Part shown: positions 4,104 through 27,961 of the stretch, in pieces
Layout: each line of letters begins with the position of its first letter
Position numbering within the stretch: position 1 is the stretch's first letter
Assembly (NCBI RefSeq): GCF_024227715.1
Contig: NZ_CP100449.1
Span: 248,001 to 312,000, forward strand
Direction: 5' to 3'
Source: Halomarina litorea
GTDB taxonomy: Archaea > Halobacteriota > Halobacteria > Halobacteriales > Haloarculaceae
Length of the DNA stretch: 64,000 nt
The notes under the pieces: generated by a model
What the model was told of the DNA's origin: nothing
The model's database searches: none
Seen by the model: the letters and a program-made list of their open reading frames with translations, nothing else
Made by a program: the position numbers and the translations under genes

Positions 4104-4137
4104 TGGGTGGCTCACACACGGCCCGTATGCACCGACC

Positions 4138-4143
4138 GGAGGT
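4138..4143 (+). promoter_or_regulatory. Shine-Dalgarno site that decides the start at 4149
   Basis: GGAGGT is separated by five bases from the ATG at 4149. It favours this start over an in-frame upstream ATG at 4074, which lies before the probable TATA box. Haloarchaea often lack such sites, so its presence is informative. Confidence 0.6.
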
Positions 4144-4148
4144 TCGCA

Positions 4149-7755: not shown

Positions 7756-7766
7756 GCCGTGACGTG

Positions 7767-7788
7767 ATGACAACGATAGCGTTGTCAT
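7767..7788. repeat. Perfect 9-bp inverted repeat downstream of the IclR gene
   Basis: ATGACAACG and CGTTGTCAT flank the four bases ATAG. The element lies in the convergent gap between the IclR gene and the epoxide hydrolase gene and is followed by a short T run (GTTTTC). It could be a terminator hairpin or a regulator operator. The rest of the gap to 8045 holds no gene that I can support. Confidence 0.6.
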
Positions 7789-8045
7789 ACCACGGCGTTT
7801 TCGGTCAGATATTTGGCAAACGTCCTTCGCTCACACGATTCCACGTCCGTTCGTCTAATCGGGTCGAACGGTGAGACGGGGCGACGAACAGCCGTGACGA
7901 ACCGGGAGACGGACTCCGCGTCCGCTCCACGCCTCGGCTCGCCGTTCGACAGGGTTGGACCGGGTGGCGGGGGACCGTCGCGGGGCGGCGGACGGCGGCC
8001 CCGTAGGTGACGGCTCCGTGCGGTGGCCGGGCCGTCGCCGCCGAC

Positions 8046-9296
8046 TCAGGCGTGGGGTGTCCCACCCGCGTCGGTCCCGGCGCCGCGGTAGTTCCCGAAG
8101 AAGGTCCGCAGGTCCTCGACGAACAGGTCGGGGACCTCCATCGCCGCGAAGTGGCCCCCCTCGGGCATCTCCACCCAGTGTTCGATGTCGTACACCGCCT
8201 CTGCCCACGCGCGGGGGGTGCGCGACACCTCCACGGGGTAGCGCGCGTGGCCGGTCGGGACGTCGACGGAGTCGGGGACGACGTCCTCGAACGTCGTCTC
8301 GTAGTACAGGCGCATGGAGGCGTTGACGGTCCCTGTGAGCCAGTAGACGCCGAGGTTGTCGAGCAGTCGCTCGCGGTCGAAGCGCGACTCCACGTCGCCG
8401 TCGCAGTCGCTCCACGTCCGGAACTTCTCGACGACCCACGCCGCGAGGCCCGCCGGCGAGTCGGTGAGGCCGTAGGCGAGCGTCTGGGGCTTCGTCGACT
8501 GGATGGCCTGGTAGCCCGTCTCCCCCTCGCGGGCGGCCTTCGTCGCCTCGTAGTCGGCCCGCCCCTCCTCGTCGAGCATCCCCATCGGGTCCTCGAACGC
8601 CGAGGGGCGCAAGAACAGGAGGTTGGTGTGGATGGCCGCCACCCGGTCGGGGTACTCCGCCCCGAGAATCGCGGTGACGAGTGCGCCCCAGTCGCCGCCC
8701 TGCGCGAGGAAACGGTCGTACCCGAGGCGGGTCATCAACTCGGCGAACGCCTCTGCGATACGTCGGGCGTCCCACCCCGCCCCCGTCGTCGGCCCCGAGA
8801 AGCCGTAGCCCGGGAGCGACGGGGCGACGACGTGGAAGGCGTCGTCCGGGTCGCCGCCGTGGGCCGCCGGGTCCGACAGCGGCCCGAGGACGTCGAGGAA
8901 CTCCACGATCGACCCCGGCCACCCGTGGCTCAGGAGCAGGGGCGTGGCGTCCGGTTCGGGCGACCGGACGTGGTAACAGTGGACCCGCTGGCCGTCGATG
9001 GTCGTCACGTACTGGTCGAAGCGGTTGAGCCGTCGCTCGAAGGCGTCCCAGTCGTAGGACTCGCGCCAGTACTCACAGAGCGTCCGGAGGTACTCCGGGT
9101 CGGTCCCGTACGACCAGTCGTCCGCCGGGGGGTCGTCGGGCCAGCGGGTGGCCGCGAGCCGTCGCCGCAGGTCCGCCACGTCGTCGTCGGCCACCGACAC
9201 CTCGAAGGGCCGGACCGCGTCGCCGGTGTCGTCGGTATCGTCGATGTCGCCGCTCACGCCGTCCCCGTCGCCCGTCCGTTCCGCGTTCGGTTCCAT
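8046..9296 (-). CDS. Epoxide hydrolase (alpha/beta hydrolase with N-terminal EHN domain)
   Basis: A 416-residue alpha/beta hydrolase. An acidic tail of about 28 residues is followed by the epoxide-hydrolase N-terminal domain (FEVSVADDDVADLRRRL, ATRWPDD) and then the catalytic fold. HGWPGS is the oxyanion motif and D202 in GGDWGA is the expected nucleophile; PSLPGYGFSG matches the family. The C-terminal half has EMPEGGHFAAME with the catalytic histidine. It should open epoxides to diols by way of an ester intermediate. It shares a divergent promoter region with the second substrate-binding lipoprotein gene. Together with the haloalkane dehalogenase at 26215 it suggests use of epoxide or organohalide intermediates, which is an inference from content only. 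Confidence 0.9.
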   Translation of the reverse strand: MEPNAERTGDGDGVSGDIDDTDDTGDAVRPFEVSVADDDVADLRRRLAATRWPDDPPADDWSYGTDPEYLRTLCEYWRESYDWDAFERRLNRFDQYVTTIDGQRVHCYHVRSPEPDATPLLLSHGWPGSIVEFLDVLGPLSDPAAHGGDPDDAFHVVAPSLPGYGFSGPTTGAGWDARRIAEAFAELMTRLGYDRFLAQGGDWGALVTAILGAEYPDRVAAIHTNLLFLRPSAFEDPMGMLDEEGRADYEATKAAREGETGYQAIQSTKPQTLAYGLTDSPAGLAAWVVEKFRTWSDCDGDVESRFDRERLLDNLGVYWLTGTVNASMRLYYETTFEDVVPDSVDVPTGHARYPVEVSRTPRAWAEAVYDIEHWVEMPEGGHFAAMEVPDLFVEDLRTFFGNYRGAGTDAGGTPHA

Positions 9297-9407
9297 TCAC
9301 CAGTCGCCGTGTCCGTAGACATACGTCCCACCGTGCGCACTGGTACCGGATACCGTTTGCGCCGGTCGCGGCGCGCGGTCGGTCGTGACGCCGCGTCGTG
9401 CAGTAAG

Positions 9408-9415
9408 GCTTAAGG
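9408..9415 (+). promoter_or_regulatory. TATA-like box of the second substrate-binding lipoprotein
   Basis: GCTTAAGG lies about 30 bases before the ATG at 9443, the position expected for a haloarchaeal TATA box. Confidence 0.45.
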
Positions 9416-9442
9416 GTTCGCTCCCCCGTCCTTTGGTAGCTC

Positions 9443-10771
9443 ATGACAGGGCGGAAGTCACGCGAGACACGACGAGGGTTCGTACAGCAGGTCGGTGCGG
9501 GCGTCCTCGCTGGCGGGGTGGCGGGCCTCGCCGGCTGTACCAGCGGGGAGAACAGCGGCGACGGTGGCGGCGGCGGTGGTGGCGGCAACGGCGACGGGAA
9601 CGGCTCCGGTGGCGGGACGACCGGCGGCGGTGGCGGGTCCCAGACGCTCAAACTCGGCGGCCTGTTCGCCACGAGCGGGCCGTACTCGGCGCTCGGCGTC
9701 GACCAGCGCGACGGGGTGAAGGTCGCCCTCCAGCACATAGAAGAGGAGGGCGTCGACCTCACGGTCGAGGAGACGTTCGCCGACACGCAGTTGAACCCGG
9801 AGGAGGGGCTGCGTCGCGCCCGGGAACTGGTCGAACGCGAGAGCGTGGACGCGCTCATCGGCATCGCGAGTTCGTCGGTGGCGGCAGCGGTCGCCAACTA
9901 CGCGAACCAGAATCAGGTGCCGCTGATGCTCACCGTCGCCACCGACGAGGCACTGACCGGCGAGAAGTGCAACAAGTTCACCTTCCGGTCGAACACCCAC
10001 ACCTACCAGAACCAGAAGCCGAACGCCGAGTACGCGATGGAGAACCTCGGGACGACGTTCGCCACGATGGGCGCGGACTACTCGTGGGGGCGCGCCAGCG
10101 TCAAGGCGTTCGTGGAGGTCGCGGAAGCAAACGGCGGTGAGGTCGTCGAACAGGTCTGGCCCAAACTCGGCGCCAGCGACTACTCCTCCGAGATTCAGAA
10201 GGTGGCGGACTCCGACGCCGAGTTCCTCCTCGTGCGCTGTTCGGGCGCGGACGGGGTCAAATCGGCGAAGCAGATCGCCTCCTTCGGCCTCAAAGAGCAG
10301 ATGGACATCATCACCAACCAGACGACCATCGTCGCGCAGGGGGCGGGCGACGCGGCCGTCGGCAACTACGGCGGCGTCCCGTACCACGCCGCGCTCACGA
10401 GCGAGCAGACGGGCAACGACCAGAACGAGAAGTTCGTGGCCGACTACCGCGAGATAGGCGACGGCTCGGACCCGAGCACCTACTCCTGTTCGTCGTACAT
10501 GGGGATGTGGTTCCTCGGGAAGGCCGTCGTCGAGGCGGGGTCGACCGACGGCGCGGCGATGGTCGACGCACTGGAGGGCATCTCCCACGACGGGCCGAAG
10601 GGACCGATGGAGATCCGTGCCTGCGACCACCAGGCGACGAACGCGGTCTGGTCGTCGCAACTCGTCTCGCCGGAGGGGACCGAGTTCGACTACCCCATCC
10701 CGAAGATATTCAAGAAGCACGACTCGGGGACGAACTCCCGGCCCTGCGAGGAGACCGGCTGTAACCTCTGA
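9443..10771 (+). CDS. ABC transporter substrate-binding lipoprotein, LivK type (second copy)
   Basis: A 442-residue Tat-exported lipoprotein: twin arginine at R10-R11, lipobox LAGC with C32, then a Gly/Asn-rich linker and a HAAT-type periplasmic-binding fold starting near TLKLGGLFATSGPYS. It is a paralogue of 894-2225 and keeps the same core segments (YAMENLGTT, GADYSWGRAS, VWPKLGASDYSS) and two cysteines near the C-terminus. Differences cluster in the ligand-facing half after residue 240, so the two may bring different substrates to the same permease. It is convergent with the livF-type gene at 10813. Its sequence places it with amino-acid/amide/short-acid importers, without naming the ligand. 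Confidence 0.9.
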   Translation: MTGRKSRETRRGFVQQVGAGVLAGGVAGLAGCTSGENSGDGGGGGGGGNGDGNGSGGGTTGGGGGSQTLKLGGLFATSGPYSALGVDQRDGVKVALQHIEEEGVDLTVEETFADTQLNPEEGLRRARELVERESVDALIGIASSSVAAAVANYANQNQVPLMLTVATDEALTGEKCNKFTFRSNTHTYQNQKPNAEYAMENLGTTFATMGADYSWGRASVKAFVEVAEANGGEVVEQVWPKLGASDYSSEIQKVADSDAEFLLVRCSGADGVKSAKQIASFGLKEQMDIITNQTTIVAQGAGDAAVGNYGGVPYHAALTSEQTGNDQNEKFVADYREIGDGSDPSTYSCSSYMGMWFLGKAVVEAGSTDGAAMVDALEGISHDGPKGPMEIRACDHQATNAVWSSQLVSPEGTEFDYPIPKIFKKHDSGTNSRPCEETGCNL

Positions 10772-10790
10772 CCGGCGACGGGAGAATCAG

Positions 10791-10806
10791 TTTTTCGACG
10801 CGTCGA
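10791..10806. terminator. T run and palindrome between convergent transporter genes
   Basis: In the 41-base gap between the two convergent genes there is TTTTT (10791-10795) overlapping the perfect palindrome TCGACGCGTCGA (10795-10806). Archaeal terminators are T-rich, so this is a reasonable end point for plus-strand transcription. Confidence 0.4.
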
Positions 10807-10812
10807 CCCGCC

Positions 10813-11505
10813 TCAGACGGCCACGTGTTCGCGGAGCGTCGGGTCGTCCGGCGTCAGCCCCTCGGCGTCGTCCTCGTGGACGACGCGGCCGTTGGCGAGG
10901 ACGTAGACGCGGTCGGCAACGTCCAGCGCGAGGCGGACGTTCTGCTCGACGAGGACGATGGTGAGGTCGTCTTTCAGTTCGAGGATGGCGTCGCGCACGT
11001 CGGCGACGATCTGCGGCGCCAGCCCCTCGCTCGGTTCGTCGAGCAGGAGGAGGCGCGTCCCGCCGAGGAGCCCCCGCGCGATGACGAGCATCTGCTGTTC
11101 GCCTCCCGAGAGGTCGCCCGCCTGTGCGTTCGAGAGATCGTGTAGTTTCGGGAAGAGGTCGTAGGCGTCGTCGACGGTCCAGTCGCCGCCGCGCCCCGCC
11201 GGAACCTCGAGGTTCTCGGCGACGGTGAGCTGTGGCCACACCTGCCGGTCCTCGGGGACGTAGCCGAGTCCGCGCTGGATGATCTTGTAGGTCGACTCGC
11301 CCGTGATGTCCTCGCCGTCGTAGCGGATCGTCCCGCTCCGAGGCGGGGTGATCCCAGCGACGGTCCGCAGGGTGGTGGTCTTGCCCGCGCCGTTGCGCCC
11401 GAGGAGCGTCACGACCTCGCCCTGCTCGACGGATAGCGAGACATCGTGGAGCGCCTGACTCTGCCCGTAGAATGTGTCCACGTTCTCCACGTCGAGGAGC
11501 GCCAT
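10813..11505 (-). CDS. livF: Branched-chain-type ABC transporter ATP-binding protein LivF
   Basis: A 230-residue ABC ATPase. Walker A is GRNGAGKTT, the signature is LSGGEQQML, and Walker B is LLLLDEPSEGLAP, the last typical of LivF rather than LivG. It would sit on the cytoplasmic face of the LivHM permease with LivG. The start MALLDVENV at 11505 shares its first base with the stop of the livG-type gene (TGATG), so the two are translated together. No substrate information can be taken from an ATPase. Confidence 0.93.
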   Translation of the reverse strand: MALLDVENVDTFYGQSQALHDVSLSVEQGEVVTLLGRNGAGKTTTLRTVAGITPPRSGTIRYDGEDITGESTYKIIQRGLGYVPEDRQVWPQLTVAENLEVPAGRGGDWTVDDAYDLFPKLHDLSNAQAGDLSGGEQQMLVIARGLLGGTRLLLLDEPSEGLAPQIVADVRDAILELKDDLTIVLVEQNVRLALDVADRVYVLANGRVVHEDDAEGLTPDDPTLREHVAV

Positions 11506-12248
11506 CAGGCCATTCCCCCGAGGTACGCCTCCTGTACCGACTCGTCGGCCTGTACCGACGACGGCGGGCCCGAGGCGATGACGGCCCCGTTGTGCAACAC
11601 GACGACGTGGTCGGAGATGTTCATCACGATGTCCATGTTGTGTTCGACGAGCATGATGGTGTACTCGCCCGCGAGTTCCTCGATGAGGTCGAGCATCGAC
11701 TCGATCTCGATCTGGCTCATCCCCGCCGCGGGTTCGTCGAGGAGGAGGAGGTCCGGGTCGATGGCCAGCGCGAGGCCGATTTCGAGCGAGCGCTTGTCCC
11801 CGTGCGAGAGGACGTTCGCCGGTCGGTCGCGCTCCTCCGAGAGGCCGACGAAGGAGAGGATGTCCTCGGCCTCCTCGGTGTACTCGGCCTTGCTGTCGGC
11901 GTGCTGGTGGACGTTCCACCCGCCGCGGTGGCGCGCCTGCACCGCCACGCGGACGTTCTCCAGTACCGAGATGCCGCCGAAGACGTTCGTAATCTGGAAG
12001 GACTTGGCGATGCCCTTGCGCGCGATGGCCTCCGGCGCGAGGCCGGTGACGTCCTCGCCGCGGAAGGTGATGACGCCGGTGGAGGGTTCGAGCGCCCCGG
12101 CGAGCATGTTGAACAGCGTCGTCTTGCCCGCGCCGTTCGGCCCGATGAGTGACGTTATCTCGCCCTCCTCGACCGAGAGGTCGACGTCGTCGACGGCCGT
12201 CACCCCTCCGAAGTGCTTCGTGAGACCGTCTGTCTCTAGTATCGACAT
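11505..12248 (-). CDS. livG: Branched-chain-type ABC transporter ATP-binding protein LivG
   Basis: A 247-residue ABC ATPase with Walker A GPNGAGKTT, LFNMLAGALEPSTG following it, signature-like LSHGDKRSLEIG and Walker B LLLLDEPAAGMS, a combination characteristic of LivG. It heads a two-gene operon with livF (one-base overlap) and diverges from the permease genes at 12368, with a shared promoter region of about 120 bases. Co-regulation of ATPases and permeases from this region is likely. Confidence 0.93.
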   Translation of the reverse strand: MSILETDGLTKHFGGVTAVDDVDLSVEEGEITSLIGPNGAGKTTLFNMLAGALEPSTGVITFRGEDVTGLAPEAIARKGIAKSFQITNVFGGISVLENVRVAVQARHRGGWNVHQHADSKAEYTEEAEDILSFVGLSEERDRPANVLSHGDKRSLEIGLALAIDPDLLLLDEPAAGMSQIEIESMLDLIEELAGEYTIMLVEHNMDIVMNISDHVVVLHNGAVIASGPPSSVQADESVQEAYLGGMA

Positions 12249-12326
12249 CTGTGCCCCGCGCCCGCCCTACCGGTGGCCCGTCTATTCATGCTAGCGAGTA
12301 CCACGAGGTGTGGTGTCCCGATGCAT

Positions 12327-12336
12327 AAGTTTAACC
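12327..12336 (+). promoter_or_regulatory. TATA box of the livHM operon
   Basis: AAGTTTAACC lies 32-41 bases before the ATG at 12368. The surrounding ATGCATAAG stretch is the most AT-rich part of the livG/livH divergent region. Confidence 0.5.
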
Positions 12337-12367
12337 CTCTCGCCTCCCGTGCTCGTGTCAGGACAAT

Positions 12368-13246
12368 ATGGCGGACGTTAGCACAATCGTCGGTATCGTA
12401 CTCAACGGGTTGGCCATCGGGATGTTGCTGTTGCTCGTCGCATCGGGCCTCTCACTCATCTTCGGGCTGATGGGCGTGGTCAACTTCGCACACGGGTCGC
12501 TGTACATGTTCGGGTCGTACTTCGGCCTCGTCCTGTTCGACCGGACCGGGGTGTTCTTGCTCGCCCTGCTGGCCGCCCCGTTCCTCGTCGCGGGCATCGG
12601 GATGGTCATGGAGTACCTCACGCTCAGACCGCTGTACGGGCGCGACCCGCTCTATCAGATCCTCCTCACGTTCGGCATCGCGCTCATCCTCGACGAACTG
12701 GTGGTGCTCGTCTGGGGGCCGAACGCCCTCGACTTCACCACTCCGGCGTGGGCGCAGGGCGTCCTCGACGTGGCGGGCGCGGCGTTCCCCGCCTACCGCC
12801 TGTTCGTCATCGTCCTCGGGGCGGTGGTCGCGGTCGGTCTCTACGCCTTCCTCCAGCGGACCCGGTACGGACTGGTCGTCCGCGCGGGGACGGCCAACCG
12901 GACGATGGTGGAGGCGAGCGGCATCAACGTCAAGCGGGCGTTCACCATCATGTTCGCCGTCGGGGCGGGGATGGCCGCCGTCGGCGGCGTCGTCGCCGGG
13001 CCGATGCTGAGCGTCCACCCCGCGATGGGGCTGGAGATGGTCATCGAGGCGTTCGTCGTCGTCGTCATCGGCGGCCTCGGGAGCTTCCGAGGATCGGTGG
13101 TCGGTGCGTTGCTCGCCGGCCTCGCCCAGTCGTTCGGGAGCTACTACGTCCCGGCGGCGTCCTCTATCATCATCTTCGCGCTGATGGTCGTGGTGTTGCT
13201 GGTGCGTCCGGGCGGCCTCTTCGGTGACCCGGAGGTGGAACACTGA
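12368..13246 (+). CDS. livH: Branched-chain-type ABC transporter permease LivH
   Basis: A 292-residue integral membrane permease with about eight hydrophobic segments. GLSLIFGLMGVVNFAHG near the N-terminus and VVVIGGLGSFRGSVVGA near the C-terminus are hallmarks of LivH in HAAT importers. It pairs with LivM to form the channel. The stop and the start of livM overlap as TGATG. The C-terminus VLLVRPGGLFGDPEVEH is also typical (LxRPxGLFG). Confidence 0.94.
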   Translation: MADVSTIVGIVLNGLAIGMLLLLVASGLSLIFGLMGVVNFAHGSLYMFGSYFGLVLFDRTGVFLLALLAAPFLVAGIGMVMEYLTLRPLYGRDPLYQILLTFGIALILDELVVLVWGPNALDFTTPAWAQGVLDVAGAAFPAYRLFVIVLGAVVAVGLYAFLQRTRYGLVVRAGTANRTMVEASGINVKRAFTIMFAVGAGMAAVGGVVAGPMLSVHPAMGLEMVIEAFVVVVIGGLGSFRGSVVGALLAGLAQSFGSYYVPAASSIIIFALMVVVLLVRPGGLFGDPEVEH

Positions 13247-14292
13247 TGGCGGTCGGACTGGCCGACCGGTTCGAGGACCGGACCGCCGCGCTCCGCCTCG
13301 GCCTCGCGCTCCTCGGCGTCGCGGCGTTCGCCCTCCTCCCGCAGGTACTCTCGAACTTCGAGACGGGCCTCGTCGTGGAGTTCCTCATCCTGTTGCTGTT
13401 CGCCGCGAGCTACGACCTGCTCATCGGCTTCACGGGCGTCGTCTCCTTCGGCCACGCGCTCCCCTACGGCGTGGGGGCGTACTTCATGGGCATCGCCATG
13501 TCGGGACGGCCCCTGCCGGGCATCCCGGAGGCGGGGCTCTCCCTCCCGGTGGCCGTCGTGCTGGCGCTGGTGGCGGTGGTCCTCGTCTCGCTCATCACGG
13601 GCTGGCTCGCCTTCCAGCTCTCGGGAGTGTACTTCGCCATGCTCACGCTGGCGTTCTCGATGGTGGGCTACTTCGTCGTCTTCGAGTCGACGGGTATCAC
13701 CGGCGGCGACAACGGCCTGCTCGTCTTCCGGCCGGACCTGCTCGGCCTCCCCCTCGGCGACTACGTGACGTTCTACTACCTCGTGTTCTGGGTCGTCCTC
13801 GTCTCCTTTCTCGCCATGCGGCGGCTCACGAACTCGCCGTTCGGCCGCGTGCTCGTCTGCATCCGCGAGAACGAGGAGCGCGCCCGCTTCCTCGGCTACG
13901 ACACCTTCCGGTACAAACTCGGCGTGTTCGTCGTCGCGGGCCTGTTCGCGGGCATCGCGGGCCTCTTGCAGGGGCTGTACCTGCAGATCGTCACCCCCGA
14001 CCTGCTGTACTGGTCGACGGGCGGTGACGCCCTGCTGGTGACGCTCATCGGCGGGATGGGTACGCTCTGGGGCGCGGCGGTCGGTGCCGCCTTCCTGCTC
14101 GGCGCGCGCGAACTCCTGACGGGCATCGTCGAGGGCTGGCCCATCGTCCTCGGCGTCGTCTACGTCCTGTTCGTCCTGTTCGTCCCGCACGGCATCGCGG
14201 GCCTGCTCACGGGTAAGGGCGAGGCGCGCTCGGTCTGGGACGTCGTCGGGGACCTGCGCTCGGACGACGGCGAGGGCAGCACCGACGACTGA
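13246..14292 (+). CDS. livM: Branched-chain-type ABC transporter permease LivM
   Basis: A 348-residue membrane permease with about ten hydrophobic segments. Family marks are YDLLIGFTGVVSFGHA, FAMLTLAFSM, TGGDNGL and the C-terminal GGMGTLWGAAVGAAF. It is coupled to livH by a one-base overlap and completes the importer. The last 40 residues are charged and acidic and probably cytoplasmic. Expression is likely tied to the acyl-CoA genes that follow on the same strand, although about 60 bases separate it from the next start. Confidence 0.94.
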   Translation: MAVGLADRFEDRTAALRLGLALLGVAAFALLPQVLSNFETGLVVEFLILLLFAASYDLLIGFTGVVSFGHALPYGVGAYFMGIAMSGRPLPGIPEAGLSLPVAVVLALVAVVLVSLITGWLAFQLSGVYFAMLTLAFSMVGYFVVFESTGITGGDNGLLVFRPDLLGLPLGDYVTFYYLVFWVVLVSFLAMRRLTNSPFGRVLVCIRENEERARFLGYDTFRYKLGVFVVAGLFAGIAGLLQGLYLQIVTPDLLYWSTGGDALLVTLIGGMGTLWGAAVGAAFLLGARELLTGIVEGWPIVLGVVYVLFVLFVPHGIAGLLTGKGEARSVWDVVGDLRSDDGEGSTDD

Positions 14293-14351
14293 CCCGGTCT
14301 CTCACCTCGGTCCGGGAGAACGCTTTTGCCCCCTCCCCCGGAGTGCGGACC

Positions 14352-15140
14352 ATGGTCGACCCCGACTACGAGAACTTCGTGACGACGTTCGAGGACGGCG
14401 TGCTCCGCGCGGAGATACACAGCACCTCGAAGATGAACGCGCTCAACCGGACGATGTCCGAGGAACTGCTGGAACTCGCCGTGCGCCTCCACGAGGACCA
14501 CGTCCGGTGTTTCGTCCTCACCGGCTCCGACGGCGTGTTCTGTGCCGGGGGCGACGTGGGCAACTTCGTGAACGAGTCGGCGTCCGCCGGGATGCGCAAG
14601 GGGGCGTCGATGCTCCACGACGCCGTCGTCCAGTTCCACCAGGCGGAGGTACCCATCGTCACGGGCGTCAACGGCGCTGCGGTCGGTGCCGGGTTCAGCC
14701 TCGGCATCTTCGGCGACTACGTCCTCGCCAGCGACGAGTCGTACTTCCAGTTCGGCTACCCCGGCATCGGCGCGACGGGCGACGGCTCCTCGACGTACTT
14801 CCTCCCGCGCGTCGTGGGACTCCGACAGGCCAAGCGCATCGCCCTCCTGAACGAACGTATCGCGCCCGACGAAGCCGTCGAACTGGGACTGGCGACCGAG
14901 GCCGTCCCCGAGGCCGACTTCGCGGACCGACTGGACGAGGTCGTCGGGCAGGTGGCGGAGGGACCGACCGTCGCCCTCGGGCGCACCCAGCGACTCCTCA
15001 CCGAGAGCACCTCGCGGGGCATCGAGGAGCAACTCGCGGCGGAGACGAACACCATCGCGCGGACGGCGAAGACCGAGGACTTCAAGGAGGGCGTCCGGGC
15101 GTTCGGCGAGAAGCGGACGCCGGAGTTCGAGGGCAGGTAG
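14352..15140 (+). CDS. Crotonase-family enoyl-CoA isomerase-like protein (PaaG type)
   Basis: A 262-residue crotonase starting at ATG 14352 (an in-frame GTG nine bases earlier is less likely). VFCAGGDVGNF and AAVGAGFSLG keep the oxyanion hole, but both hydratase glutamates are missing: GAGFSLG has Ser at the first position and FGYPGIG has Tyr at the second. The segment GIGATGDGSSTYFLPRVVG instead matches PaaG/enoyl-CoA isomerases, with D144 as the likely acid/base. It should therefore shift a double bond or open a ring rather than add water. It abuts the convergent kinase gene at 15141 and belongs by position to the acyl-CoA module up to 19641. Confidence 0.87.
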   Translation: MVDPDYENFVTTFEDGVLRAEIHSTSKMNALNRTMSEELLELAVRLHEDHVRCFVLTGSDGVFCAGGDVGNFVNESASAGMRKGASMLHDAVVQFHQAEVPIVTGVNGAAVGAGFSLGIFGDYVLASDESYFQFGYPGIGATGDGSSTYFLPRVVGLRQAKRIALLNERIAPDEAVELGLATEAVPEADFADRLDEVVGQVAEGPTVALGRTQRLLTESTSRGIEEQLAAETNTIARTAKTEDFKEGVRAFGEKRTPEFEGR

Positions 15141-16208
15141 CTAGAGTCGGTCCTCGCGGACGACCCCCAGCATGTCCTCGACGAGGCCGGGGACGATGTA
15201 CTGGAACCACGCGGCGCGCACGTCGTCGGTCTCGCCGGACCGGAAGCGGTCCACCCCGGAGAGGCCGATGGTCATCATGACGAACGCGGAGAACGCCCGC
15301 CAGTAGCGCACCCGCTCGCGGTCCACCGTCCGGCCGGACCGACGTTCGTACTCGTCGTAGAACCACTCCCGGTCGAGGAGGGAACAGGCGAGTTCGGGCC
15401 GCTCGATGGGGTCGACGAGTTTCCCGGCGAAGTAGTACGTCGAGGCGTAGCCGAGGTCGTACATCGGGTCGCCGATGCGGGCGAGTTCCCAGTCCAGCAG
15501 CGCGGTGACGTCGTCGCCGTCGACGAGCATGTTCCCGATGCGAAAGTCGCCGTGGACCACCGTCGTCTCGGGTACCTCGGGCGCGTTCGCCCGAAACCAG
15601 CGGATGCACTCCTCGACGGCGGGTTCGGGCCGCACCACGCTGTCGCGGTACTGGCCCACCCAGCGGTCCAGTTCTCGCTCGACGACGTCCTCGGGCGGGC
15701 AGTCGTCCAGTTCCGGGACGTCCCCCGGGCCGAGGGTGTGGACGCCGACGGCGCAGTCGACGAACTGCGAGGGGAGACTCGACTCGCCGTCGCGTTCGTC
15801 CCACGCGTCGTAGAGTCGCTGACGCTGGTCGCGGTCCCACGTCACGGGCGCGTCGCCGGGGACGTAGTCGACGACGAAGAAGCGCCCGCCCAGAACGGAC
15901 CGGTCGCCCTCGAACCAGTGGGTCTCGGGGACGGGGACGGGGGCGTCCTGTGCGGCGTCCATCGTCCGGAACTCCGTCTCGACGTCGTTGCCCTCGCCGG
16001 TGGCGTCGCCCTCGACCTGCGCGTCGCTCTCGGCGCGGACGACGAGTCTGCGCTCGTGCGTCTCGCCGGACTCCTCCCACCGCGCGGTGAACGACGCCGT
16101 GTCGCGCGACCACCCCTCGACGTGCTCGTGGAGGTCATCGACCGAGACGTCCGCGTCGAGTCGGTCCGAGAGGAACGTCGCTAGCGCTCCCTCGGTGACG
16201 TCACTCAT
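15141..16208 (-). CDS. Phosphotransferase family protein (LvaA/ACAD10-kinase like)
   Basis: A 355-residue APH-fold kinase: VVHGDFRIGNML with H219 as the catalytic-loop start, then ALLDWELARIGDP for metal binding, and YDLGYASTYYF. In bacterial levulinate catabolism LvaA, a kinase of this family, phosphorylates 4-hydroxyacyl-CoA. The start at 16208 overlaps the end of the upstream small gene by eight bases (ATGAGTGA), so the two proteins are made together, as kinase and helper are in lvaAB. The acyl-CoA dehydrogenase and acyl-CoA ligase genes diverge just upstream. It has the same length as the kinase at 4149 and the same motifs. The 4-hydroxyacyl-CoA role is inferred from gene order. Confidence 0.85.
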   Translation of the reverse strand: MSDVTEGALATFLSDRLDADVSVDDLHEHVEGWSRDTASFTARWEESGETHERRLVVRAESDAQVEGDATGEGNDVETEFRTMDAAQDAPVPVPETHWFEGDRSVLGGRFFVVDYVPGDAPVTWDRDQRQRLYDAWDERDGESSLPSQFVDCAVGVHTLGPGDVPELDDCPPEDVVERELDRWVGQYRDSVVRPEPAVEECIRWFRANAPEVPETTVVHGDFRIGNMLVDGDDVTALLDWELARIGDPMYDLGYASTYYFAGKLVDPIERPELACSLLDREWFYDEYERRSGRTVDRERVRYWRAFSAFVMMTIGLSGVDRFRSGETDDVRAAWFQYIVPGLVEDMLGVVREDRL

Positions 16209-16680
16209 CGGGACCACTCCGCCGGCCGAGCATCGCCAGTTGCGCGTCGAGGCGCGCGTCGAGGAAGCCGTAGAGCGGGCGGCGAACGGCACGGGCCGCC
16301 TCGCCGTCCAGTTCGTCGTCCACCGTCGCGAGCAGGCCCTCGCACGATTCGAGCAGTGCGGTCTCGCGCTCCCGCGTCGTCCCATCCGCGTCGAGGGCGG
16401 CGCGGGCGTCCTCCACCGCGTCGCGGACGCCGGGTGCGGTGCCGTCGTGCGCGTCGAGTATCGCTTCGGCACCGTCGAGTGCCTCGCGGAAGGCGTCGGC
16501 CTGTCGCTCCACCGACGCCTCGCCCGCGTCGAGTTCGCCCGCGAGGAAGCGCAGGGTGCTCGCCATCGACCCGACCTGTCCGCGGACGAAACGCTCGTCC
16601 TCGGGGACGGCCGGTCTGACCTCCTCCAGCGCGAACGCCGAGAACCGCCTGAGAACCGCCGCCGGTTCGAGATAGGGCAT
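16201..16680 (-). CDS. Small helical protein, DUF6285/LvaB-like partner of the kinase
   Basis: A 159-residue, mostly alpha-helical, acidic protein with no catalytic motif that I recognise. The N-terminal pattern (L-x2-F-x3-EEVRPAVPEDERFVRGQVGSM, written by segments) and the central RFLAGELDAGE recall DUF6285 proteins, which in bacteria sit beside APH-family kinases and acyl-CoA dehydrogenases; LvaB, needed for LvaA activity, is of this kind as far as I recall. It overlaps the kinase gene by eight bases. ATG 16680 is chosen because a TATA-like CGTATTTG lies about 28 bases upstream. Assignment to DUF6285 is from memory of the pattern and not proven. Confidence 0.75.
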   Translation of the reverse strand: MPYLEPAAVLRRFSAFALEEVRPAVPEDERFVRGQVGSMASTLRFLAGELDAGEASVERQADAFREALDGAEAILDAHDGTAPGVRDAVEDARAALDADGTTRERETALLESCEGLLATVDDELDGEAARAVRRPLYGFLDARLDAQLAMLGRRSGPDE

Positions 16681-16684
16681 ACCA

Positions 16685-16696
16685 CCCGATGTGGGG
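16685..16696 (+). repeat. Operator-like repeat, copy 1
   Basis: CCCGATGTGGGG lies four bases before the ATG of the minus-strand gene starting at 16680, between that ATG and its TATA box. An identical 12-mer occurs at the matching place before the divergent gene at 16799. Relative to each gene the two copies are in opposite orientation. Confidence 0.45.
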
Positions 16697-16704
16697 CGTC
16701 CGCC

Positions 16705-16712
16705 CAAATACG
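16705..16712 (-). promoter_or_regulatory. TATA-like box of the kinase/helper operon
   Basis: On the minus strand CGTATTTG is centred about 28 bases before the ATG at 16680, predicting a near-leaderless transcript. Confidence 0.5.
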
Positions 16713-16765
16713 TATGGGTAGTGATCTCGCGGCACAGTTCGGCACGGAGAGTGTCAGCAGTCCCC

Positions 16766-16775
16766 TAGGTATTTG
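16766..16775 (+). promoter_or_regulatory. TATA-like box of the acyl-CoA dehydrogenase gene
   Basis: TAGGTATTTG is centred about 28 bases before the ATG at 16799. It shares GTATTTG with the TATA box of the divergent operon, so the two promoters are built alike. Confidence 0.5.
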
Positions 16776-16783
16776 CTCCGCCG

Positions 16784-16795
16784 CCCGATGTGGGG
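16784..16795 (+). repeat. Operator-like repeat, copy 2
   Basis: CCCGATGTGGGG, identical to 16685-16696, ends three bases before the ATG at 16799 and lies between TATA box and start. A regulator bound here would block initiation of both divergent operons. Confidence 0.45.
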
Positions 16796-16798
16796 TGT

Positions 16799-18031
16799 AT
16801 GGACTTCGAGACGCCCCCGGAGATAGCCACGTTGCTCGACGACCTGGACGAGTTCATCGAGTCGGAGATACGCCCGCTGGAGGAAGAGCACCCGGAGTAC
16901 TTCGACGAACGACGCGAGTACGCCCGCACGGACTGGGAGAACGGCGGCGTCCCCCGCGAGGAGTGGGAGGCGTTGCTGGACGAACAACGCAGGCGGGCCG
17001 ACGAGGCGGGCTTCTACCGGTTCGCGCTCCCCGAGGAGTTGGGGGGGCAGGGGGGGTCGAACCTCGCGATGGCGCACGTCCGCGAACACCTCGCCCACCG
17101 GGGTATCGGGTTGCACAACGTCCTCCAGCAGGAGGCGTCCATCGTGGGCAACTTCCCCATCGCGCAGGCCATCCACCGGTTCGGGGCCGACCATCACAAG
17201 GAGATGCTGGAGGACATCATCACGCGCGAGACGCCCGTCGCGTTCGGCCTCACGGAACCCGACCACGGGAGCGACGCGACGTGGATGGACACGACGGCGG
17301 AGAGGGAGGGCGACGAGTGGGTCATCGACGGCGCGAAACGTTGGAACAGCGGGATGCACGTCGCGGAGTACGACCTCGTGTTCGCCCGCACCAGTGGGGA
17401 GGACGGCGACCACGAGGGCATCACCGGTTTCCTCGTCCCGACGGACGCCGACGGCTTCGAGGTGGAGTTCTACCACTGGACGTTCAACATGCCCACCGAC
17501 CACGCCGAGGTGGACATCGACGGCGTGCGCGTCCCCGACAGCGCCATCGTCGGCGAGGAGGGTCAGGGCCTCCGACTCGCGCAGGCGTTCCTCTACGAGA
17601 ACCGCATCCGGCAGGCCGCCTCCAGTCTCGGCGCGGCGCAGTTCTGCATCGACGAGGCCGTCGAGTACGCCAACGAACGCGAGACGTGGGGCCAACCGCT
17701 GGCCGACCGGCAGGGTATCCAGTTCCCCCTCGCGGACCTGCACACGGAGGCGGAGATGCTGCGCAACACCGTCTACCGCACCGCGTGGATGCTGGACCAG
17801 GAGGGGAAGTTCTCCGGGAGCGACAAGGTGTCGATGGTCAACTACACCGCGAACAACCTCGTCTGCCGGGCCGCCGACCAGGCCATCCAGGTCCACGGGG
17901 GGATGGGGTACAGTCGGGCCAAGCCCTTCGAACACATCTACCGCCACCACCGCCGCTACCGCATCACGGAGGGGTCCGAGGAGATACAGAAACGGCGCGT
18001 CGCGGGCCACCTGTTCGGCTACCTCGGGTAA
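16799..18031 (+). CDS. Acyl-CoA dehydrogenase family protein
   Basis: A 410-residue flavoprotein of the acyl-CoA dehydrogenase fold: FGLTEPDHGSDAT for FAD/substrate binding, WVIDGAKRWNSG, and C-terminal IQVHGGMGYSRAKPFEHIYRH. The usual catalytic base is present as E391 in ITEGSEEIQ, so oxidation of an acyl-CoA is possible; ACAD10/11 have Asp at this site as far as I recall. In the Lva pathway the homologous LvaC acts on the phosphorylated 4-hydroxyacyl-CoA. The gene diverges from the kinase/helper operon and is followed by an acyl-CoA ligase. Start 16799 is supported by the TATA box at 16766 and by the operator-like repeat. Confidence 0.93.
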   Translation: MDFETPPEIATLLDDLDEFIESEIRPLEEEHPEYFDERREYARTDWENGGVPREEWEALLDEQRRRADEAGFYRFALPEELGGQGGSNLAMAHVREHLAHRGIGLHNVLQQEASIVGNFPIAQAIHRFGADHHKEMLEDIITRETPVAFGLTEPDHGSDATWMDTTAEREGDEWVIDGAKRWNSGMHVAEYDLVFARTSGEDGDHEGITGFLVPTDADGFEVEFYHWTFNMPTDHAEVDIDGVRVPDSAIVGEEGQGLRLAQAFLYENRIRQAASSLGAAQFCIDEAVEYANERETWGQPLADRQGIQFPLADLHTEAEMLRNTVYRTAWMLDQEGKFSGSDKVSMVNYTANNLVCRAADQAIQVHGGMGYSRAKPFEHIYRHHRRYRITEGSEEIQKRRVAGHLFGYLG

Positions 18032-18080
18032 CCCGGGGTCCGCACCGGCCCCTCGGCCGAGTCCCCGGACCACCGCACAC

Positions 18081-18089
18081 AGTTATGTG
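18081..18089 (+). promoter_or_regulatory. TATA box of the second acyl-CoA ligase gene
   Basis: AGTTATGTG is centred 27 bases before ATG 18112, the distance for a leaderless transcript. It argues against an in-frame ATG at 18085, which overlaps the box. Confidence 0.55.
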
Positions 18090-18111
18090 TCGTGACCTGT
18101 CATCACGTGAC

Positions 18112-19641
18112 ATGCGAGGGCTGACCTTCGGTCACGTCGCGGAGGCGAACGCGCGCAAGTACCCCGACGACACCTGTCTGGTCACGGAGACGGCGGTGGG
18201 CGAGGAACACCTCACGTTCTCGGAGTTCGACGGGCGGGTGAACCGGGTCGCCCACCTCCTCCGGGACCGGGGGGTGGGAGAGGGCGACCGGGTGGCGGTG
18301 TACTCACAGAACAACGCGGAGACGCTGGAGACGTACCTCGGCGCGATGAAACTTGGGGCGCTCCCGGTTCCGGTCAACCACCGCTTCAAGGACGAGGAGG
18401 TGGGCTACGTCGTCCGCGACAGCGGCGCGGGGACGATGGTGTTCGACCGCGAGGCCGCCCCGACGGTCGAGGCCGTCCGCGAGGGGGGTGAGACGCCCCT
18501 CGACCGGTTCTTCTTCGTCGGCGAGGACGTCCCCGAGTACGCCGAGGACTTCCGGGAGGCACGCGAGGCGGCGTCGGCGGAGCGAGTCGAGGTGGTCCCG
18601 GACCGACTGGACGACGCCGCCCTCATGTACACCTCCGGGACGACGGGCAAGCCGAAGGGGTGTGTCCTCACGCACGACAACGTCGTCCAGAACGCGGTCA
18701 ACACCGTGTACAGTTCGGGCTTCGAGGAGAACGCCGACAACTTCCTCGTCGTCACGCCCCTGTTCCACGTCGCGGCGTTCGCGCTGTTCTGCGATACGTT
18801 CTACACCGGGTCCGCGGTCTACCTCGTGGACGAGTTCGACCCGGTCCGGGTGATGGAGGTCATCGAGGAGGCCGGGATCACGGGTTCGTTCTTCGTGCCG
18901 ACGATGAGTCGCGCCCTCCTCGACGTCGAGGACTTCGAGTCCTACGACCTCTCGTCGTTCCGCCACTACATGACGGGCGCGGCCCCCTCGGGGCGCGAAC
19001 TCAAGGAGACCATCATGGAGTCGTTCGGCGCGGACCTCTACGACGCCTTCGGGCAGACGGAGATGTCGCCCGTCACCACTCTGTTACTCCCCGAGGACGC
19101 CCTCGACAAACCCGACAGCGTCGGCAAACCCGTCATCAACGTGACGCTGAAGGTGGTCGACGACGCGGGCGAGGAGGTCGAACAGGGCGAAATCGGGCGG
19201 GCGGCGTACAAGGGTCCCACCGCCTTCCGGGAGTATCTGGGGATGCCCGAGAAAACTGAAGAAGTGTTCGACGACGAGGGGTACTTCGTCTCCTCGGACC
19301 TCGTGCGCAGAGACGAGGAGGGGTTCGTCTACTTCGTGGGGCGCTACGACGACATGATCATCTCCGGCGGCGAGAACATCCATCCCGCCGAAATCGAGGA
19401 GGTTCTCCACGAACACGAGGCCATCTCGGAGGTGGCGGTGGTGGGTGTGCCCGACGAGAAGTGGGGCGAACGCGTCAAGGCCGTCGTCGTCCCCCGAGAG
19501 GGCCACGAGGTCACCACCGAGGAGGTGACGACATTCGTGGAGGCGCGCCTCGCGGACTTCAAGAAGCCCCGCGAGGTCGTGTTCCGCGACGAACTCCCCC
19601 GTAATCCCACCGGCAAGGTCATCAAGGCGCGACTGGAGTGA
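18112..19641 (+). CDS. Acyl-CoA synthetase (AMP-forming), second copy
   Basis: A 509-residue ANL-superfamily ligase. TSGTTGKPKG follows Y173; DAFGQTEMSPVT and the C-terminal NPTGKVIKARLE, with the catalytic lysine, complete the set. It resembles long- and medium-chain or aryl acyl-CoA ligases (ISGGENIHPAEIEE). It has its own TATA box although it lies only 80 bases after the dehydrogenase gene. In the Lva comparison it would be the LvaE equivalent, activating the free acid to its CoA ester. The substrate is unknown. Confidence 0.93.
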   Translation: MRGLTFGHVAEANARKYPDDTCLVTETAVGEEHLTFSEFDGRVNRVAHLLRDRGVGEGDRVAVYSQNNAETLETYLGAMKLGALPVPVNHRFKDEEVGYVVRDSGAGTMVFDREAAPTVEAVREGGETPLDRFFFVGEDVPEYAEDFREAREAASAERVEVVPDRLDDAALMYTSGTTGKPKGCVLTHDNVVQNAVNTVYSSGFEENADNFLVVTPLFHVAAFALFCDTFYTGSAVYLVDEFDPVRVMEVIEEAGITGSFFVPTMSRALLDVEDFESYDLSSFRHYMTGAAPSGRELKETIMESFGADLYDAFGQTEMSPVTTLLLPEDALDKPDSVGKPVINVTLKVVDDAGEEVEQGEIGRAAYKGPTAFREYLGMPEKTEEVFDDEGYFVSSDLVRRDEEGFVYFVGRYDDMIISGGENIHPAEIEEVLHEHEAISEVAVVGVPDEKWGERVKAVVVPREGHEVTTEEVTTFVEARLADFKKPREVVFRDELPRNPTGKVIKARLE

Positions 19642-19683
19642 GCGCGGGCGAACATTGATACTCCGTCGCACGACTGGTGAACC

Positions 19684-20676
19684 ATGTCAGAGCTATCTAT
19701 CGACACGCACGTCCCCGGGCTGCACGACGGGGCGGCCGACGCCGCCCGGCGCGCCGAGAAACTGGGCTTCGACGCCGTCTGGACCTCCGAGACCGTCGAG
19801 GACGCCGTCCTCCCGTTGCCCGTCGTCGCGGACCACACGGAGTCCGTGGACCTCGGCACGCGAATCACGCTCTCGTTCACCCGGTCGCCGATGGTCCTCG
19901 CCTATCAGGCGTGGGCCCTCCAGCAGTTCTCCGGCGGGCGGTTCGTCCTCGGGATGGGGACGCAGGTGAAGGGCCACAACGAACGTCGCTTCAGCGTGGA
20001 GTGGGGGTCGCCCGGCCCCCGACTGCGCGAGGTGGTGGAGTCCATCCGGCACATCTGGGACGTGTTCCAGGCAGAGGAGCCGACGCCCCTCGACTACGAC
20101 GGGGAGTTCTACTCCTTCTCGCTGATGACCGAGACGTTCGACCCCGGTCCAATCGACCACCCGGACATCCCCATCTTCGTCGCGGGCGTCAACGAGTACA
20201 ACGTCCGACTGGCGGGCGAACTCTGCGACGGCCTCGACATGCACGCGTTCAACACCCCCTCGTACACCGAGGAGGTCGTCGCGCCGCTGGTCCGCGAGGG
20301 TGCAGACCGGGCGGGCCGGTCGATGGACGAGGTGACGCTCTCGGCCAGTCCGTTCGTCGTCACGGGCGAGACCGAGGCGGAGTGGGAGGCGAGTCGGCGG
20401 GAGGCGAAACGCCGCATCGCCTTCTACGGGTCGACGCGCACCTACCACGACGTCCTCGACCACCACGGCTGGAAGGCGGTCGGCGAGGAACTCCACGAAC
20501 TCTCGAAGGAACAGCGGTGGGAGGAGATGACCGACCTCGTCACCGACGAGATGCTCGCGGCGTTCGCCATCGAGGCCGAACCCGAGGAGTTGCTCGCCGA
20601 GGCGGAGGCCACCTACGGCGACGTCGCCGACCGGGTCGGCCTCCCGCTGGAACACGGCGAGGCGTTCATGCCCTGA
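19684..20676 (+). CDS. F420-dependent LLM-class oxidoreductase
   Basis: A 330-residue luciferase-like (LLM) TIM-barrel protein. SIDTHVPGLHDGAADAARRAE, FDAVWTSE and FVLGMGTQVKGHNERRF fit the subfamily I recall as the MSMEG_2256-type F420-dependent oxidoreductases, which are frequent near acyl-CoA genes in actinobacteria. It would use reduced or oxidised coenzyme F420 for hydride transfer to a substrate that cannot be named. It follows the acyl-CoA ligase after 42 bases on the same strand and is likely co-transcribed. In a Lva-like pathway it could replace the NAD(P)H keto-reductase LvaD, which has no homologue in the window. Confidence 0.88.
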   Translation: MSELSIDTHVPGLHDGAADAARRAEKLGFDAVWTSETVEDAVLPLPVVADHTESVDLGTRITLSFTRSPMVLAYQAWALQQFSGGRFVLGMGTQVKGHNERRFSVEWGSPGPRLREVVESIRHIWDVFQAEEPTPLDYDGEFYSFSLMTETFDPGPIDHPDIPIFVAGVNEYNVRLAGELCDGLDMHAFNTPSYTEEVVAPLVREGADRAGRSMDEVTLSASPFVVTGETEAEWEASRREAKRRIAFYGSTRTYHDVLDHHGWKAVGEELHELSKEQRWEEMTDLVTDEMLAAFAIEAEPEELLAEAEATYGDVADRVGLPLEHGEAFMP

Positions 20677-26214: not shown

Positions 26215-27114
26215 TCAGCGGGTCCGTCGGACGAACTCAACGATCTGTTCTGCGGTCCGGCCGCCGGCGTCCTCCTGGATGAAGTGTCCTGCCCCCTCGA
26301 CCCACACGTCGGGTTGCTCGGTCGCCGAGGGGACGAGGTCACGCAGGAGGGTACGGAACTCGCGCGTGATGGGGTCCGCGTCGCCGAACAGCGCGAAGAA
26401 GGGCTTCTCCCACTCGCCGAGGGCCTCGCGGGCCTCCCGGAGGTGGGCCGCGCCCGGCGCGTCCGGGTCGCGGGGGACCATCGGCGGCCACGCGTACGCG
26501 CCGGCCTTCGAGGCGTCGTCGTGGTACGGGGCGTCGTAGGCCGCCCGCACCCCGGGCGAGAGCGGGGTTTCACAGCCGCTCTGGACGAGGCGGGACACCT
26601 GGAAGTCGTCGGTGGTCTCGACGAGTTCCTTGAACCGGTACCACACCTCGGGCATGTCCACGGTGCCGTCGGCGAGGACGGCGTTCATCGCCACGATGCG
26701 GGAGAACCGCTCGGGGAACTCGTTGGCCGCGACGGGCAGGCCGAGGATGCTCCCCCAGTCCTGACAGACGAGGGTGACGTTCTGTAAGTCGAGTGCCTCG
26801 ACGAACGCCACGAGCGACTCGTAGTGCATCTCGAAGGTGTACTCCTCGACCTCGTCGTACTTGTCCGAGCGGCCGAACCCCACAAAGTCGGGGACGACGA
26901 CGCGTCCCTCGTCGGCCAGCGTCGGGAGCATCTTCCGGTAGAGGTAGCCCCACGTCGGTTCGCCGTGGAGACAGAGGAACGTCTCCTCGGCGCCGCCGTC
27001 CTCGTCCACGTAGGCCATCCGCGCGTCGTCCTCGCCAACCTCGACGAACGCGGGGTCGTAGGGGTAGCCGGGCAGGTCGTCGAGGCGTTCCTCTGGTGTA
27101 CGTACGAGTCCCAT
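26215..27114 (-). CDS. Haloalkane dehalogenase
   Basis: A 299-residue alpha/beta hydrolase close to the DhlA type. CLHGEPTWGYLYRKM carries the oxyanion and halide-site region, D119-W120 in VCQDWGS are the expected nucleophile and halide-binding Trp (D124-W125 in DhlA), FVGFGRSDK follows strand order, and GAGHFIQED contains the catalytic histidine. The length and the EEYTFEMHYESL segment also fit. It would release halide from short haloalkanes to give alcohols; substrates of HLD-I enzymes vary. Co-occurrence with an epoxide hydrolase at 8046 is notable, although 17 kb away. The upstream gap to the lipoprotein gene holds an inverted repeat. Confidence 0.85.
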   Translation of the reverse strand: MGLVRTPEERLDDLPGYPYDPAFVEVGEDDARMAYVDEDGGAEETFLCLHGEPTWGYLYRKMLPTLADEGRVVVPDFVGFGRSDKYDEVEEYTFEMHYESLVAFVEALDLQNVTLVCQDWGSILGLPVAANEFPERFSRIVAMNAVLADGTVDMPEVWYRFKELVETTDDFQVSRLVQSGCETPLSPGVRAAYDAPYHDDASKAGAYAWPPMVPRDPDAPGAAHLREAREALGEWEKPFFALFGDADPITREFRTLLRDLVPSATEQPDVWVEGAGHFIQEDAGGRTAEQIVEFVRRTR

Positions 27115-27191
27115 GACGGGGGGTCAGTCGCCAGCGACATACCGGTTCGGGTGCTTCCGACAACCATGACGGACTCCCGCGAAGCAGCAAA

Positions 27192-27225
27192 CGGGTATTT
27201 GACGCTCCGCTGTCGCTAATACCCG
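27192..27225. repeat. 8-bp inverted repeat between divergent genes
   Basis: CGGGTATT and AATACCCG flank 18 bases in the 130-base region between the dehalogenase gene (minus) and the lipoprotein gene (plus). Half-sites are about 2.5 helical turns apart (26 bases centre to centre) and sit 20-53 bases before the GTG at 27245, so an operator is plausible. Confidence 0.5.
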
Positions 27226-27244
27226 AGCGGTCCTCCTCTCTCCC

Positions 27245-27961
27245 GTGAACCCGACACGACGCACCCTCCTGAAGTTCGCCGCCCTCGCCACCGCGACCGG
27301 TCTCGCAGGGTGTATCGGCGAGGACCCCCAGTCAGACAGCCCCGGTCCGGGCGCGGCGAACGGGACCGGGTCCCCCACGCCGACCCCGACACCCACCGCC
27401 TCGCCCACCGACGACGGACTCCCGGGGGCCGGCGGCAACGGGTCCAACGGATCCGGTGAGACCCGACCCCGCGGCACCGGCGGCCCGGGCGTCTTCGTCG
27501 CCGGCACCGACGACGTGACGGGACCCATCGAGCACCGCGTCGAGGTGCTCCGCGAGGCGGCAACCGACGACGCGCCCCCGCAGGTCCGCGTGTCGGTGAC
27601 GAACACGACGGACTCGACGCTCCACGTGGGCGAGGGTCGCGCCGTGGTGTTCGCCTACCGGGAGGACACCGACGGCCACCTGGTGCTCCTGCCCGCAGAC
27701 GGCGAGTACCCGGCGGAGGCGGGGTGCTGGCGGCTCACCGAACCCATCGCCGTCACCGAGGAGTACCGCATCACGCGCCTCGCCCCCGGCCAGACCGTCG
27801 AGCAGTCGCTCGACCTGTACGCGACGCCTGGCGAGGACGCTTGCCTCCCGGTCGGCGAGTTCCGCTTCGAGACGACCTACGAGGCGATGCGCGGGGAGAC
27901 GACGCCCGAGGCGAAGAGCGGCACCTCGGGGACGTGGGGCTTTACGGTCCTGCTGGAGTGA
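27245..27961 (+). CDS. Tat-exported lipoprotein of unknown function
   Basis: A 238-residue protein with a GTG start, twin arginines R5-R6 and lipobox LAGC (C23). A Pro/Thr/Gly/Ser linker of about 65 residues leads to a domain from about residue 90 (TGPIEHRVEVLREA) that looks like an all-beta, Ig-like haloarchaeal extracellular domain: VRVSVTNTTDSTLHVGEG, then CWRLTEPI, and FRFETTYEAMRGE. Two cysteines in this domain (CWRL and DACLP) may pair. The function is unknown; no enzyme motif is visible. It stands alone, divergent from the dehalogenase gene and upstream of a PHP gene that has its own promoter. Confidence 0.8.
   Translation: MNPTRRTLLKFAALATATGLAGCIGEDPQSDSPGPGAANGTGSPTPTPTPTASPTDDGLPGAGGNGSNGSGETRPRGTGGPGVFVAGTDDVTGPIEHRVEVLREAATDDAPPQVRVSVTNTTDSTLHVGEGRAVVFAYREDTDGHLVLLPADGEYPAEAGCWRLTEPIAVTEEYRITRLAPGQTVEQSLDLYATPGEDACLPVGEFRFETTYEAMRGETTPEAKSGTSGTWGFTVLLE

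Follow-up and report, generated by a model that had tools for sequence, protein, structure and literature searches.

We analysed a 64,000-nucleotide stretch of the Halomarina litorea genome (contig NZ_CP100449.1, positions 248,001 to 312,000; hereafter the window), in which a gene for an APH-fold kinase (KIN) and a gene for a small helical protein (SMALL) lie beside a divergently oriented acyl-coenzyme A (CoA) dehydrogenase gene (ACAD; Table 1). KIN and SMALL form a conserved two-gene unit, KIN falls in a clade of small-partner kinases that contains LvaA of Pseudomonas, the local ACAD lacks the residues that mark LvaC, and LvaC-type genes are present elsewhere in the same genome. On balance, and with modest confidence, we favour a reading in which KIN and SMALL would be a two-subunit hydroxyacyl-CoA kinase, an LvaC-type enzyme would act in trans, and the local ACAD would have a conventional role. 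The functions that we assign to the module throughout are predictions from sequence.

Within the literature searched, the route that combines a kinase with phosphate elimination for 4-hydroxy acids is described only in proteobacteria and mammals, and the role of LvaB is unexplained. The initial annotation had read positions 14352-20676 as carrying the gene content of lvaA, lvaB, lvaC and lvaE. Its gene coordinates and families were borne out: all six open reading frames (ORFs) are open and comprise members of the ECH_1, APH kinase, acyl-CoA dehydrogenase, AMP-binding ligase and luciferase-like F420 oxidoreductase families, with the small gene at 16201-16680 the only one to lack a family match in Pfam and NCBIfam. 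The LvaA/LvaB half of the proposed gene content stands as clade membership and remote homology; the identity fails at C because the ACAD lacks the diagnostic residues and lies outside the LvaC clade, and the ligase is a match only to a promiscuous superfamily.

KIN and SMALL form a conserved two-gene unit

The small gene is a true gene and not a chance ORF, because strong orthologs of SMALL (E ≤ 1e-25, 41-71% identity) were found in 11 of 391 haloarchaeal genomes. The search left a clean gap between these orthologs (E 1e-25) and chance matches (E 5e-5); weak matches, with E > 1e-5, were thrown out as helical or compositional noise. KIN orthologs (E ≤ 1e-70) were found in 11 of 382 haloarchaeal genomes, and these are precisely the 11 that carry SMALL. 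The two genes also vary together in copy number, with two copies of both in genome G199 and a second, decaying copy of both in G193. The orthologs are adjacent at every locus read bar one, Natrinema gelatinilyticum (L052), where 12 kb separates KIN from SMALL (14001-15062 and 27056-27520); no other split pair was seen. The 8-base overlap of the two genes that had been described for the window is real (16201-16208), and the corresponding overlap in annotated Natrinema and Haloterrigena plasmids is 4 bases. Both genes are absent from three further genomes of the genus to which the window belongs, and the distribution of the unit is patchy and often plasmid-borne. The second copy in G193 (L056; G193:C2:410000-421898) is part of a decaying KIN-SMALL-ACAD cluster that is split into pieces.

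KIN groups with LvaA among kinases that have a small partner

KIN has a complete catalytic loop, with HGDFRIGN at residue 219 and DWE at residue 239, and its closest solved relatives in the PDB are 9o56, 3dxp and the ACAD11 kinase domain (8v3v); its identity to LvaA is 27%. We built a kinase tree from KIN and its orthologs, the second window kinase KIN2, kinases beside LvaC-type genes, LvaA, and DUF6285-linked and other plasmid kinases, and added seven more plasmid kinases in a second round to give 46 APH-type kinases, drawn from plasmids, haloarchaea and a few PDB chains. A single branch splits 27 partnered from 19 partner-less kinases (support 97/94; one change in 98% of bootstrap trees), and both KIN and LvaA lie on the partnered side. 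When added, the Rhodococcus opacus B4 kinase, which has a small overlapping ORF directly downstream, was placed among the partnered kinases, and six later-added partner-less kinases were all placed on the partner-less side. The residues that follow the catalytic HxD[FY] are R-x-G-N in most partnered kinases, KIN and LvaA included, and [KR]-x-D-N in most partner-less ones. The phylogeny thus places KIN in the LvaA-containing clade of small-partner kinases, in keeping with the likeness to LvaA that had been proposed.

These data also bear on the idea that KIN is a phosphotransferase for an antibiotic or another small molecule, outside acyl-CoA metabolism. The APH fold and weak matches to aminoglycoside and macrolide kinases are consistent with such a role; however, KIN is much nearer to the ACAD-linked proteins 9o56, 3dxp and ACAD11, it shares a clade with LvaA, and genes of CoA-ester metabolism are present in nearly every cluster. 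We consider this explanation very improbable.

SMALL is linked to LvaB through bacterial intermediates

All SMALL orthologs start with MP[YH]L, and their alignment contains 27 invariant positions. The AlphaFold2 model of SMALL is confident (pLDDT 91.5) and consists of five helices. Neither SMALL nor its orthologs matched any Pfam family, SMALL had no match in NCBIfam, and a sequence search of the PDB with SMALL and LvaB returned nothing useful. Comparison of the model with solved structures (Foldseek, VIA-align) gave no match below E 0.001, and the Z scores of up to 9.8 were to assorted helical bundles and are uninformative. A search of 97 haloarchaeal genomes with the DUF6285 (PF19802) hidden Markov model gave nothing above the cut-off, only sub-threshold noise. 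Direct homology between SMALL and LvaB is not claimed, the profile comparison being indistinguishable from helical controls.

The profile of SMALL did match that of unannotated proteins whose genes adjoin those of partnered kinases in bacteria (Sulfitobacter, strain QY30, Variovorax, Rhodococcus; score 37.5, probability 93%; maximum of 15.6 over 98 helical controls), and these intermediates in turn matched LvaB/DUF6285 (score 27.2; controls 15.3-17.4). The region common to SMALL and the LvaB-like proteins is the N-terminal ~65 residues. Remote homology of SMALL to LvaB is therefore supported by these stepwise profile matches, by the kinase phylogeny and by the gene position, but direct similarity gives it no support. 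The proposal that the small protein corresponds to LvaB stands as a probable remote relationship, although the DUF6285 check that had been suggested for it gave no match.

Like KIN and SMALL, the Pseudomonas 4-hydroxypentanoyl-CoA kinase genes lvaA and lvaB (L070) overlap and encode a kinase and a small helical partner. By contrast, SMALL is 159 amino acids long and LvaB about 118, and the gene order is small-kinase for KIN-SMALL and kinase-small for LvaA/LvaB.

Small proteins are encoded directly downstream of APH-type kinases at several bacterial loci (L050:7005-7478, L066:5975-6355, L067:5990-6454, L068:5963-6496, L069:3329-3871 and 5999-6469, L132:3945-4466), where they are labelled hypothetical or are unannotated. 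The five scanned, those at L050, L066, L068 and L069, had no Pfam match. DUF7064/DUF7065-related proteins are encoded near three bacterial partnered kinases (L050:10317-11324, L066:6378-7520, L068:3850-4953), with one strong and two weak matches.

The local acyl-CoA dehydrogenase lacks the LvaC signature

Dehydrogenases that process phosphoacyl-CoA (LvaC, ACAD10 and ACAD11) are marked by R626, an HCMR motif (H634, R637) and the catalytic residue Asp753 (PMC12440821). The window ACAD shares their acyl-CoA dehydrogenase fold; by contrast, it has F, Q, S and Glu at the equivalent positions, so that all four marks are absent. Its active-site helix is AFLYENRIRQAASSLG, as compared with VRLAPARLTHCMRWLG in the LvaC/ACAD10-11 type; it has NRIRQAASSLG at residue 268 and, at residue 390, TEGSEEIQ rather than DG[PA]xEVH, and it keeps the catalytic Glu. 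Its orthologs resemble it at the diagnostic residues, and further ACADs near KIN-SMALL at L058, L060 and L051 are Glu-type too. All of the DUF6285-operon ACADs that we fetched have HCMR and DG[PA]SEVH. In a tree of ACADs, proteins with the LvaC signature fall together, whether they come from bacteria or from haloarchaea (100/100), and the window ACAD belongs to a separate group (100/100). By all tests applied, the window ACAD reads as an ordinary dehydrogenase. KIN and ACAD are, as had been noted, separate genes on opposite strands, and are not fused as in ACAD10/11.

We therefore regard as unlikely the proposal that 15141-19641 is a complete equivalent of LvaABCE, in which the local ACAD would be a divergent LvaC that eliminates phosphate. 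The clustering of the same gene families is consistent with it, as is the presence of ACAD orthologs (≥70% identity) next to KIN-SMALL at most loci. However, in addition to the diagnostic residues and the separate clade, the window ACAD has 29% identity to LvaC, compared with 38% for an enzyme encoded at C2:314130, and the genome encodes genuine LvaC-type enzymes at other sites.

LvaC-type genes lie elsewhere in the genome and are widespread in Halobacteria

The genome that contains the window has two LvaC-type genes with the full signature (HCMR, DG[PA]DEVH), at C2:314130-315311 and C1:1495379-1496545. The first is 2.1 kb to the right of the window and is divergent from a partner-less kinase gene; this pair (C2:314130-316475; L063:2131-4478), whose ACAD has RLTHCMR and DGPDEVH, is the likelier archaeal Lva-type pair. 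The second also adjoins a partner-less kinase gene. Since the LvaC-type genes lie outside the KIN-SMALL cluster and have partner-less kinases of their own, KIN-SMALL may serve a different substrate.

LvaC-type genes were detected in 70 of 145 Halobacteria sampled. They are present in 11 of 11 SMALL-bearing genomes and in 66 of 141 others (Fisher p 4e-4, with no correction for kinship or genome size); the wider count is by similarity alone (E ≤ 1e-80), and for the 11 SMALL-bearing genomes the motif itself was read from the loci retrieved. In four genomes (G377, G144, G120, G353) an LvaC-type gene is ~8-10 kb from KIN-SMALL. The suggestion of a wider Lva-type route in Halobacteria thus gains support from LvaC-type genes elsewhere in this genome and in about half of the Halobacteria sampled. 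An incomplete literature search found no published account of an archaeal Lva-type pathway.

Plasmid pHME132 of Haloferax mediterranei (L125:7608-10035) has, like the window, a haloarchaeal kinase gene beside an acyl-CoA dehydrogenase gene. Unlike in the window, this kinase (8965-10035) belongs to the partner-less type, its neighbour (7608-8825) is an LvaC-type ACAD (HCMR, DGADEVH), and the annotation shows no small partner in the vicinity; the pair resembles that at 314-316 kb of C2 in the window genome. It is surrounded by short-chain dehydrogenase/reductase (SDR), HAD hydrolase, 3-hydroxyacyl-CoA dehydrogenase and ligase genes. Growth of Haloferax mediterranei on levulinic acid has been reported (PMC12455835), and the pHME132 pair is a candidate for the genes behind it.

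Companion genes point to a possible alternative substrate

Relatives of the AMP-forming ligase are present in most KIN-SMALL clusters. The window ligase has 28% identity to LvaE, a family-level match within a promiscuous superfamily, and is a candidate activator of the substrate acid. On Natrinema and Haloterrigena plasmids, KIN-SMALL is constantly accompanied by a Glu-type ACAD, by HyuA/HyuB resembling acetone carboxylase, by a protein like acetoacetate decarboxylase and by subunits of a 2-oxoacid dehydrogenase. On reading the sequence to the left of the window and into it (L126, C2:230001-248200; window 82-849), we observed E1/E2-like, thiolase-like, ACAD-like, SDR-like and HyuA/HyuB-like genes, suggesting that this region and the left end of the window belong to a catabolic replicon with the same companions as the plasmid clusters.

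Because the constant companions include HyuA/HyuB, a Glu-type ACAD and E1/E2 genes, a different hydroxylated acyl-CoA is a serious rival substrate. KIN-SMALL would then still be a two-subunit acyl-CoA kinase, but its target would be a hydroxyl at another position, another stereoisomer, or an isoprenoid or branched chain. The Glu-type ACAD would belong to the same route, joined on several replicons by HyuA/HyuB and 2-oxoacid dehydrogenase. Consistent with this, the local ACAD and not LvaC is the constant companion, and an LvaC-type ACAD is missing from the vicinity of most bacterial kinases that have a partner but fall outside the LvaB group. However, all 11 genomes have LvaC-type genes, in four of them close to KIN-SMALL, and a plasmid operon of Sulfitobacter alexandrii (L050) joins the same type of kinase to an LvaC-type ACAD. 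As in the window, that operon includes a kinase, a small unannotated partner that is a clear SMALL homologue, an AMP ligase and an ACAD, there in consecutive order; it differs from the window in the type of ACAD and in having TRAP/ABC importers and a DUF7064 protein where the window has Liv. We hold this alternative to be possible rather than probable.

A proposed route with an LvaC-type enzyme in trans

In the reading that we favour, KIN and SMALL would together make up an ATP-dependent kinase for hydroxyacyl-CoA, operating as LvaA and LvaB do. The ligase encoded nearby would make the CoA ester, and KIN-SMALL would phosphorylate a hydroxyl of the acyl-CoA, most likely at C4. An LvaC-type enzyme encoded elsewhere (one of the two described above) would then remove the phosphate to give a 2-enoyl-CoA for beta-oxidation. 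The local ACAD would be an ordinary oxidative dehydrogenase for an earlier or later step of that catabolic route and would not itself eliminate phosphate. Published pulldown data show LvaB bound to LvaA, and growth depends on the two of them (PMC6692424); the mammalian kinase domain requires a CoA ester, and ACAD10 prefers the R isomer ~fourfold (PMC12440821, PMC11342911). We infer that KIN and SMALL form a physical complex, what its substrate is, which hydroxyl is modified and that the product passes in trans to the LvaC-type enzyme; of these, the substrate is the main uncertainty of the mechanism.

Several observations weigh against this reading. The KIN-SMALL cluster of the window genome has no LvaC-type gene of its own, and the LvaC-type genes have partner-less kinases beside them. 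KIN-SMALL at G199:C2 has no ACAD, ligase or Liv orthologs within ~9 kb. KIN retains one of the two residues with which ACAD11 contacts CoA (R86/R176), although LvaA itself retains neither in the same alignment. Finally, the direct profile comparison of SMALL with LvaB/DUF6285 gave a score of 16.3, which is not significant (helical control maxima of 15.6-17.4).

Neighbouring genes and features

The crotonase gene has an additional in-frame ATG at 14352, and its product reached no equivalog cut-off in the NCBIfam search. No LvaD-type SDR reductase was found by Pfam among the genes of 14352-20676; SDR-like genes are on the same replicon, to the left of the window. The LivFGHM importer with two binding proteins that had been described next door is present, and Liv genes are also found beside KIN-SMALL at L053, L058 and L051. 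A 15-bp direct repeat, CCCGATGTGGGGYGT, at 16685-16699 and 16784-16798, brackets the SMALL/ACAD divergent promoter; it has no other exact copies within the window and is not conserved at the ortholog locus L053.

Table 1. Genes and other features of the window, in window coordinates.
Feature	Position	Strand	Remarks
KIN	15141-16208	-	APH-fold kinase; Pfam APH, E 1.9e-27
SMALL	16201-16680	-	159-amino-acid five-helix protein; putative partner of KIN; 8-base overlap with KIN
SMALL/ACAD divergent promoter region (putative)	16681-16798		118 bp
ACAD	16799-18031	+	predicted ordinary Glu-type acyl-CoA dehydrogenase, not LvaC-type
AMP-forming acyl-CoA ligase	18112-19641	+	Pfam AMP-binding, E 1.5e-85
LLM-class F420-dependent oxidoreductase, luciferase-like	19684-20676	+	TIGR03617 subfamily, above cut-off
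Enoyl-CoA hydratase/isomerase family protein (crotonase)	14343-15140	+	Pfam ECH_1, E 8.2e-47
Liv-type ABC transporter	9443-14292	both	five genes
Liv binding protein	9443-10771	+
LivF	10813-11508	-
LivG	11505-12248	-
LivH	12368-13246	+
LivM	13246-14292	+
KIN2	4074-5216	+	second, partner-less kinase; ACAD10/11 side of the tree; HGDYKLDN
Ligase near KIN2	2283-3956
Crotonase near KIN2	5221-6027

Significance

These comparisons add an archaeal branch to the two-subunit kinases, a rule of sequence and tree that parts small-partner kinases from partner-less ones, and LvaC-type genes, so far without annotation, in roughly half of the haloarchaeal genomes sampled, and they offer a candidate gene pair for the reported growth of Haloferax mediterranei on levulinate. 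More tentatively still, the small-partner kinases may be a broad and mostly unannotated family of two-subunit acyl-CoA kinases in Archaea and Bacteria, of which LvaAB would be one branch; the haloarchaeal branch, with its Glu-type ACAD, might then represent a new route that activates and oxidises a hydroxylated acyl-CoA distinct from 4-hydroxyvaleryl-CoA.

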